From contig NZ_JALM01000015.1 of NCBI RefSeq assembly GCF_000737195.2, positions 1 to 64,000 on the forward strand: a DNA stretch of 64,000 nucleotides, given 5' to 3'. Below the pieces are notes generated by a model that did no database searches, was not told where the DNA came from, and saw only the letters and a program-made list of their open reading frames with translations. Of the stretch, positions 5,186 to 8,364 are shown piece by piece. The DNA is from Sciscionella sediminilitoris (GTDB lineage: Bacteria; Actinomycetota; Actinomycetes; Mycobacteriales; Pseudonocardiaceae). Positions within the stretch are counted from its first letter, which is position 1, and each line of letters starts with the position of its first letter. The position numbers and the translations under genes are program-made.

Positions 5186-6085
5186 TCAGCGGCCGCGCAG
5201 GGTGGTGAGCGCGAGCCCGATCCCGATCAGCGCGGCGCCGACCCAGGCGAGCGCGCCGAGCCGCTCACCCACCACGAACACGCTGAGCACGGCGGCCACC
5301 ACGGGCTCGAACAGAGTGAGCGTGGCGACCGCGGTCACCCGCAGCTGCCGCAAACCGGCCCCGTAGAGCACGTAGGCCACCGACATCGGCACCAGGGCCA
5401 GATAGGCGGTCACCACGAGCCCACTGCCACGCAGCAGGGGCGCGCCGGTCGCCACGAACACCGGGATGAGCACGACCGTGCCGAGCCCGAACAACAGCCC
5501 GACCACGGCCCGCGAGGAGTGCCCGGCGCCGATCAATCGCCCGGCCGCGAATGTGTACCCCGCGTAGCTCGCCCCGCTCACCAGCCCGAGCAGCACCCCG
5601 AGCACCGGTTGGGTGCCCGCGCCGGGCCCTTCCCCGCCGAGCACGAGCGCGGCCACCCCGATCGCGCTGATCGCGGTGGCCAGCAGCCAGGTCCGGTCCA
5701 GGCGGGCGCCGTCCAGGAACCGTTCGAGCAGGGCCGCGAACACCGGGGAGGATCCGATGGTCACCACGGTGCCCACCGCGACCCCGGCGAGGCTCATCGA
5801 GCTGTAGAAGGCGAGCGGATAGATCGCCGCGTTCGCCGCCCCGAGCAGCGCGGTGACCACCGAGGTCCGCCCGGCCCGCAGCGGTCGCAACGCCGTGCGC
5901 CCGGCGAGGGCGAGCAGCACGAGGCCACCGATCCCCATGGTCGCCGCGCCGATCGACACCCCCGATGCGGCCCGTGGCGCGAAACTGGCCGCCGTTCCCG
6001 TTGTCCCCCAGAGACCGGCCGCGCCGAGCACGAACACCGCGCCCCTGGTCGTGGCCGGCCCGGATCGATACTCCTGTACTGACAT
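5186..6085 (-). CDS. EamA/DMT-superfamily transporter
   Basis: 299-aa inner-membrane protein with ten predicted helices in two EamA repeats (first GAVFVLGAAGLWGTTG, second LGVLLGLVSGASYAGYTFAAGR). It belongs to the drug/metabolite transporter superfamily and probably exports a small metabolite or drug. AAGGGATGG sits 4-8 nt before the second ATG (6085), which I prefer to the ATG at 6091. The 160 bp upstream hold a proline-rich leader peptide and an intrinsic terminator, so expression is probably controlled by attenuation. Confidence 0.9.
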   Translation of the reverse strand: MSVQEYRSGPATTRGAVFVLGAAGLWGTTGTAASFAPRAASGVSIGAATMGIGGLVLLALAGRTALRPLRAGRTSVVTALLGAANAAIYPLAFYSSMSLAGVAVGTVVTIGSSPVFAALLERFLDGARLDRTWLLATAISAIGVAALVLGGEGPGAGTQPVLGVLLGLVSGASYAGYTFAAGRLIGAGHSSRAVVGLLFGLGTVVLIPVFVATGAPLLRGSGLVVTAYLALVPMSVAYVLYGAGLRQLRVTAVATLTLFEPVVAAVLSVFVVGERLGALAWVGAALIGIGLALTTLRGR

Positions 6086-6165
6086 GTCCATCCCTTGAAT
6101 CGCCGCTGCAATGACCCGGGAGTCGGCAGCACACGATGGCCGTACCCGGACTCACCGGGTCGGCG

Positions 6166-6192
6166 AAAAACGGCTGCCGGATCAGGCAGCCG
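6166..6192 (-). terminator. Intrinsic terminator/attenuator upstream of the EamA gene
   Basis: On the minus strand CGGCTGCC, a 6-nt loop and GGCAGCCG form a perfect 8-bp GC-rich stem followed at once by five T residues. It lies after the SDR gene and before the EamA gene. The first stem arm is also the last codons of the leader peptide, and the stop codon lies in the loop. A ribosome at the end of the leader would therefore block the hairpin. Confidence 0.85.
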
Positions 6193-6235
6193 GTGGTGGA
6201 AGGACGACGCGCCAGTAGGAGTTCACGGGCCGCAT
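6182..6235 (-). CDS. Putative leader peptide (attenuator uORF) for the EamA transporter
   Basis: A short frame reads MRPVNSYWRVVLPPPAA and stops inside the terminator loop. If read from the GTG at 6226 it would be NSYWRVVLPPPAA behind the initiator. A TAGGAT -10 box (6239-6234) ends exactly 7 nt before that GTG, the spacing of leaderless actinobacterial mRNAs, so the GTG start is likely. Three consecutive proline codons are a known cause of ribosome slowing. Stalling there would cover the first terminator arm and allow read-through into the transporter. This is inference from layout; translation is not shown. Confidence 0.6.
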   Translation of the reverse strand: MRPVNSYWRVVLPPPAA

Positions 6236-6250
6236 CCTATCGAGAACGGC

Positions 6251-8048: not shown

Positions 8049-8121
8049 TAGCGGTGGCCGGACTTGAACCGGCGACACAACGATTATGAGCCGTTTGCTC
8101 TGCCAACTGAGCTACACCGCC
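8049..8121 (-). tRNA. tRNA-Met (anticodon CAT, elongator type)
   Basis: 73-nt cloverleaf beginning GGCGGTGTAGCTCAGTTGG with anticodon loop CTCATAA and T-arm GGTTCAAGTCC. The acceptor begins GGCGGTG and pairs at position 1 by a G-T wobble; it lacks the C1-A72 mismatch of initiator tRNA, hence elongator. CCA is not encoded. It stands 42 bp upstream of rpmG. Confidence 0.95.
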
Positions 8122-8291: not shown

Positions 8292-8364
8292 AGCCCCTTT
8301 ACGGAATCGAACCGTAGACCTTCTCCTTACCATGGAGACGCTCTGCCGACTGAGCTAAAGGGGC
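8292..8364 (-). tRNA. tRNA-Thr (anticodon GGT)
   Basis: 73-nt cloverleaf starting GCCCCTTTAGCTCAGTCGG, anticodon loop ATGGTAA (GGT), T-arm TACGG/CCGTA, discriminator T, no encoded CCA. It is followed on the minus strand by the hairpins at 8188-8233 and then tRNA-Met. Confidence 0.95.

Follow-up and report, generated by a model that had tools for sequence, protein, structure and literature searches.

Short leader ORFs that place a downstream gene under the control of the translating ribosome are known in several forms. In the Erm leaders (ermCL and ermBL, PMC11264731), a ribosome stalled on a short leader ORF flips mutually exclusive hairpins and thereby exposes a downstream translation start. 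The leaderless actinobacterial leaders leuL, trpL, ilvL, thrL and alaL (PMC8079986) combine a TAnnnT -10 element, a leaderless start and a short leader with hairpins afterwards; the genes that follow them are for amino-acid biosynthesis, tRNA synthetases or uptake, and that source interprets the leaders as attenuators of transcription. Upstream of leuA in Actinobacteria, the LEU element (PMC1262725) brings leader codons together with the Shine-Dalgarno region in one conserved RNA structure.

Here we describe a leader with features of each of these, found on the minus strand of a 64,000-nucleotide stretch of DNA (the window) ahead of a gene for an EamA/DMT-family transporter. Comparison with related loci supports the leader itself, its conservation at the peptide level, its link to EamA and three coevolving pairings, and these sequence patterns suggest that the locus is probably a translational attenuator with the layout of ermC, worked by the ribosome through polyproline stalling on a leaderless polyproline leader peptide.

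The leader and its EamA gene

The elements of the locus are collected in Table 1. Several had been pointed out in an earlier note on this DNA and are present in the sequence: a TAGGAT box, 7 nt and then a GTG opening a short proline-rich ORF, and an 8-bp stem with a U5 tail and the stop codon in its loop. The same note had named the downstream gene an EamA transporter, which is borne out by a match to Pfam PF00892 (E 1.6e-29; 103.3 bits against a gathering score of 28.2). A leader ORF with its own -10 box and a leaderless start is likewise supported; the window transcript is expected to be leaderless from the spacing of the box, and the same TAnnnT spacing is common to its relatives.

Table 1. 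Features of the leader and EamA locus in window coordinates
Feature	Position	Strand	Remarks
-10 box TAGGAT	6234..6239	minus	7 nt upstream of leader start codon
Leader ORF GTG..TGA	6182..6226	minus	GTG 6226-6224, TGA 6184-6182; peptide V/M-NSYWRVVLPPPAA
Pro-Pro-Pro codons CCA CCA CCG	6191..6199	minus	read from sequence
Segment 1 (5' arm of hairpin A)	6185..6192	minus	CGGCTGCC; within leader codons
Segment 2 (3' arm of hairpin A)	6171..6179	minus	GGCAGCCG at 6178-6171
Segment 2 stretch CGGCAGC	6179-6173	minus	alternative partner is segment 3
Hairpin A	6192-6185 / 6178-6171	minus	CGGCTGCC / GGCAGCCG; 8 bp, 7 G-C; loop TGATCC contains leader stop
T5 tract	6166..6170	minus	gives hairpin A a terminator-like form, in this genome only
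Hairpin B	6139..6164	minus	spacer between segments 2 and 3; no coevolution with segment 2
Segment 3 GCTGCCG	6124..6130	minus	complementary to segment 2
Hairpin C (3:4)	6099..6137	minus	just 5' of EamA Shine-Dalgarno; 5' arm includes segment 3
Likely EamA Shine-Dalgarno AAGG	6093..6096	minus	precedes ATG 6085; read from sequence
EamA/DMT-family transporter gene	5186..6091	minus	start 6091 or, more likely, 6085

The preference for the inner EamA start rests on the AAGG motif 7 nt upstream of it. Against the nearest NCBIfam model, TIGR00950, the window protein scores below the cut-off, and no solved structure close to it in sequence was found. Upstream of the leader lies a short-chain dehydrogenase gene, with 11 bases between its end and the -10 box. 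An in-frame ATG at 6233-6235 (minus) overlaps the box (TAGGATG) nine bases 5' of the GTG, as it also does in the sister species L002, so that on a read-through transcript of the upstream gene a start at this ATG (MRPVNSYW...) could be possible. At gathering score, no known Rfam element matched the leader; the only Rfam matches in the window were three tRNA genes (2235-2307, 8049-8121, 8292-8364 (minus)), two of them near each other.

A short upstream ORF with the window's layout precedes 19 of the best 30 EamA homologues in related genomes (family and order). The layout shared across Actinobacteria is a -10 box followed, after about 7 nt, by a leaderless ORF that has 11-14 codons and ends in [VI][TL]PPP-x-x-stop, the commonest form being V/M-H-R-x-F-x-[VI]-T-P-P-P-x-x-stop. 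When GTDB contigs were scanned with this last peptide pattern, no gene being demanded, at least 119 stretches were recovered, mostly from Amycolatopsis, Pseudonocardia, Nocardia, Jiangella, Actinophytocola, Kibdelosporangium, Catenulisporales or Streptosporangiales. A pattern consisting of the -10 box, 7 nt, a start and xPPPxx-stop was matched in 30 of 200 genomes of the same bacterial family at 13 codons and in 12 of 150 at 14 codons, while the corresponding controls with one base omitted before the stop matched in 0 of 150 and 0 of 150 genomes, which places the layout beyond chance. Two further frame-shifted patterns matched in 1 of 395 genomes (one base omitted between His-Arg and Thr, and one before the stop) and 2 of 297 (before the stop). 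One stretch matched by a shifted pattern (L032, G190:C1:5566439-5566479, minus) starts MHRLFPITPPP, with the matched stop out of frame; compared with the Jiangella leaders, it may be missing one C in the PPP region.

The link to EamA is close. In a pool of 137 distinct candidate leaders, 19 of them found starting from EamA and the remainder by patterns independent of it, an EamA ORF lies downstream in 128 among the matches listed; the other nine comprise seven with too little downstream DNA and two off-target matches without a -10 box, on a Planctomycetota contig and a delta-proteobacterium contig. A scan across the class (247 genomes) contributed 19 more leaders, every one of which precedes EamA; seven belong to a Streptomyces-like genus and are mostly of the form MHxxxLVLPPPAA (an example of this type is MHSTALVLPPPAA). 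When 30 orthologues from this genus were fetched by EamA alone, 29 had a leader and -10 box; PPP was present in 28, SPP in one (MAHLALVLSPPAA), and one had no leader. The sister species L002, whose EamA is 95% identical, has the same leader and hairpin as the window. A more distant homologue (L003, EamA 65% identical) has a leaderless ORF, MSFPWGFVLPSVVRA, with a -10 box and without PPP, and appears to be a variant or decayed form. In L224 (G624:C290:29145-30062), the leader is intact and the EamA orthologue contains one in-frame TGA.

Promoter and peptide are both conserved. In nearly all of 100 leaders, a TAnnnT precedes the start codon by 6-8 nt (by 7 nt in 73), with C at -1 in 94% and no -35 element. 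Among 86 leaders of the HR type, most of which came from patterns demanding His and Arg, codon 2 is His in 85 (CAC 60, CAT 25) and codon 3 is Arg in 84 (CGG, CGA, CGC); HR is also present in 28 of the 30 matches of the 13-codon pattern, which demanded neither residue. Of the same 86, 79 have Phe or Tyr at codon 5 and 80 have Ile or Val at codon 7. Leaders of the Streptomyces type use all four codons for the Val preceding Leu-Pro-Pro-Pro and three for the Leu. Third codon positions are free (entropy 1.1-1.4 bits) where the residues are conserved. The leader is under selection as a peptide. Since most searches demanded PPP, evidence for its conservation rests on the sets gathered from EamA first, such as the 30 orthologues of which 28 have PPP. 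The comparison of orthologous leaders called for by the earlier note supports a conserved peptide with PPP as its key motif.

These substitution patterns bear on two other explanations. In the first, the locus would be an RNA-only switch in which the PPP codons are retained for a C-rich segment 1, the peptide and any stalling being irrelevant. The PPP codons do lie in or adjoin segment 1; however, third positions vary freely while residues are held, and synonymous variation is also seen at H, R, F, V and T/L (as well as at the Val-Leu of the Streptomyces type), all of them 5' of segment 1, leaving this explanation very improbable. In the second, uncharged tRNA-Pro would stall the ribosome at PPP in a trp-like manner, making the leader a plain sensor of proline supply for a transporter of proline or a related metabolite. 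This would be a version of the translational attenuator with a named signal, compatible with the explanation we prefer, and it agrees with PPP being better conserved than the rest of the peptide in every leader type, a rest that can be as little as MHSTVL. Plain tRNA sensing, however, does not require HRxFxVT or HW to be conserved as amino acids within clades, and no gene link to proline metabolism was seen, so that we consider a plain proline sensor unlikely. The gene neighbors of EamA give no general functional hint, with no family recurring in more than 18 of 76 loci. At HR-type loci (L037, L057 and others), one upstream gene recurs in 18 of 76 and one opposite-strand downstream gene in 14 of 76.

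Each leader type (HR, HW, Streptomyces and a small third form) occupies one branch of the EamA tree, that of HW including one homologue of uncertain place, and EamA homologues without a leader also exist. On the strength of the sequence comparison, the leader is to be seen as a real, widespread and conserved regulatory unit.

Alternative pairings between leader and EamA

Folding predicts that segment 2, immediately after the stop, pairs either with the PPPxx codons (segment 1) or with segment 3, about 40 nt before the EamA start. Segment 3 can also form hairpin C with segment 4, which contains or abuts the EamA Shine-Dalgarno; the 3' arm of the hairpin ends at this motif, which is GGAG in aligned loci and has a mean predicted unpaired probability of 0.20. 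The 1:2, 2:3 and 3:4 pairings are mutually exclusive.

Coevolution was assessed by an alignment-free comparison of cognate partners with partners swapped between species (95 loci, 5000 swaps). With kinship only partly corrected, cognate partners paired better for 1:2 (z -7.7), 2:3 (z -12.5) and hairpin C (z -8.8), with 0 of 5000 swaps as good in each case. Control pairings of segment 2 with hairpin B, the leader start and the promoter were null in the same test, 1:3 gave z -2.1, and thinning to below 75% identity (85 loci) altered the results little. Plain column-wise G statistics were dominated by leader subtypes and a TAG/TGA register shift, and re-anchored column counts were used instead; by these, the conservation of eight adjacent 2:3 pairs ranges from 81 to 100% across 78 loci, and partners change in a compensatory manner, for instance G-C in 68 and A-T in 7. 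The 28 Streptomyces-type loci gave weaker values (1:2 z -3.6, 2:3 z -3.0), hairpin C being marginal (z -1.9). A direct pairing between the end of the leader and the Shine-Dalgarno region, attractive in some folds, was rejected, as segment 1 shows no coevolution with the arm adjacent to the Shine-Dalgarno (z +2.4). At two loci (L099 and L103), the post-stop segment 2 is unlike that of the others and has no match to segment 3, possibly through an insertion or a displaced segment.

That the specific pairings end at the Shine-Dalgarno also weighs on Rho-dependent attenuation, in which a stalled ribosome would block or permit Rho loading between leader and EamA in a tnaC-like manner. Structured RNA near the leader end and the loop of hairpin C, pyrimidine-rich in many loci, speak for such a mechanism, which nevertheless has no need of three coevolving pairings, and we judge it very improbable.

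The earlier note had read hairpin A and its U5 tail as an intrinsic terminator prevented by the stalled ribosome. The 8-bp G-C-rich hairpin followed by TTTTTCGC fits that description in the window, and PMC8079986 interprets leaderless leader peptides of S. lividans, whether or not a U tract is present, as transcription attenuators. As a general mechanism the proposal is not supported: of 125 loci, none but the window carries a terminator-like element over the stop, against 0.6 expected by shuffling, and in the sister species TTCGCC replaces TTTTT after the hairpin. Anywhere from the stop to the Shine-Dalgarno, terminator-like elements occur in 7 of 125 loci against 4.1 expected, and a conserved G-C hairpin with a U tract, as in a trp-type attenuator, was not found as a shared feature of the 125. 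Transcription attenuation also leaves the coevolution of segments 2 and 3 unexplained. It is therefore an improbable account of the switch, while hairpin A may in addition terminate transcription in the window genome.

Ribosome position and signal

In the translational attenuator that we favor, transcription would start at the leader start codon, as the -10 spacing indicates. A ribosome that does not stall would complete the leader and depart, allowing the PPPxx codons to pair with segment 2; segment 3 would then be held in hairpin C, abutting or including the Shine-Dalgarno, and EamA translation would be low. A ribosome stalled with the first or second proline codon in its P-site would cover segment 1 up to the stop, upon which 2:3 would pair, hairpin C would open and EamA would be translated. 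The stall, its direction (stall as on) and its signal we infer.

Folding with ribosome-masked RNA is consistent with this order of events. Over 85 loci, the mean probability of the 2:3 pairing, P(2:3), is 0.15 in free RNA and 0.70-0.81 with the 3' edge of the ribosome at -9 to 0 relative to the end of the stop, falling to 0.20 at +3 and 0.00 at +9. In toeprints, the distance from P-site to ribosome edge is usually 15-16 nt. Given this distance, the last part of the -9 to 0 range puts the first or second proline in the P-site, and a ribosome that waits at the stop codon (+9) is excluded by the model as the state that forms 2:3. For the window, P(2:3) reaches 0.68 at -3 and at 0, is 0.29 at -6, and stays near zero elsewhere or when free. 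The proposal that a ribosome stalled on the prolines would mask the first hairpin arm, also made in the earlier note, is supported.

Against the attenuator stand the L003 leader lacking PPP and a predicted release of the Shine-Dalgarno that is modest. On masking, its mean unpaired probability rises from 0.20 to 0.28; of 86 loci, 16 show a rise of more than 0.2 and 2 a fall. In the window, 2:3 and hairpin C exclude each other, and release of the AAGG is not clearly predicted. By these calculations, Shine-Dalgarno release is the weakest step of the model.

Control by inhibitors or by proline/EF-P status, the signals first suggested for this leader, is possible. The most likely signals would be a peptidyl-transferase inhibitor or another small molecule that strengthens the arrest, or else a shortage of EF-P function or Pro-tRNA. 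A more specific version, which we offer tentatively, is that an arrest peptide of 11-14 residues, spread across the actinobacteria, responds to one particular small molecule through stronger polyproline stalling and induces an uncharacterized EamA exporter by translational attenuation. The candidate ligand would be either an inhibitor of translation or the substrate of the exporter itself, and the N-terminal types (HRxF, HW and the short Streptomyces type) could be tuned to different ligands.

Relation to known systems

A search of openly licensed papers only, and so weak as evidence of absence, found no literature on EamA with a leader peptide and no description of a polyproline-leader EamA switch; nor is a polyproline leader or an EamA gene listed among the S. 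lividans leaderless leaders in the passages of PMC8079986 covered here. If the model is true, many genomes of Streptomyces, Amycolatopsis, Nocardia and their relatives have a conserved single-gene sensor in which a ribosome slowed at PPP turns an exporter on, and both leaderless mRNAs and a polyproline leader come within the range of ermC-type attenuation. In actinobacteria, such a unit would serve as a natural reporter for the status of EF-P, Pro-tRNA or inhibitors, and it would point to the inducer, and hence the likely substrate class, of an uncharacterized transporter family.

Several described leaders share one part of this design. Proline codons in MgtL, as cited in PMC11611912, control a transporter gene with possible EF-P dependence, although there the response is of mgtA transcription in Salmonella to Mg2+ and the motif is XPX rather than PPP. 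The RAPP arrest peptides (PMC10951233) likewise show proline-dependent nascent-chain arrest in a regulatory role; they control components of protein localization, whereas the EamA leaders lack the RAPP motif and have only 11-14 residues. Actinobacterial uORFs proposed to sense translation inhibitors precede ARE ABC-F genes in Streptomyces (are5sc and tiaA, PMC12421871), with a terminator/anti-terminator model, start-codon stalling and a gene family different from EamA. The LEU element involves a pseudoknot with leucine codons, while the EamA leader has three alternative pairings, proline codons and another gene. Unlike the Erm leaders, which it resembles in its exclusive hairpins, the EamA leader is leaderless, carries a polyproline motif, precedes a transporter gene, and is a chromosomal unit retained across whole clades.
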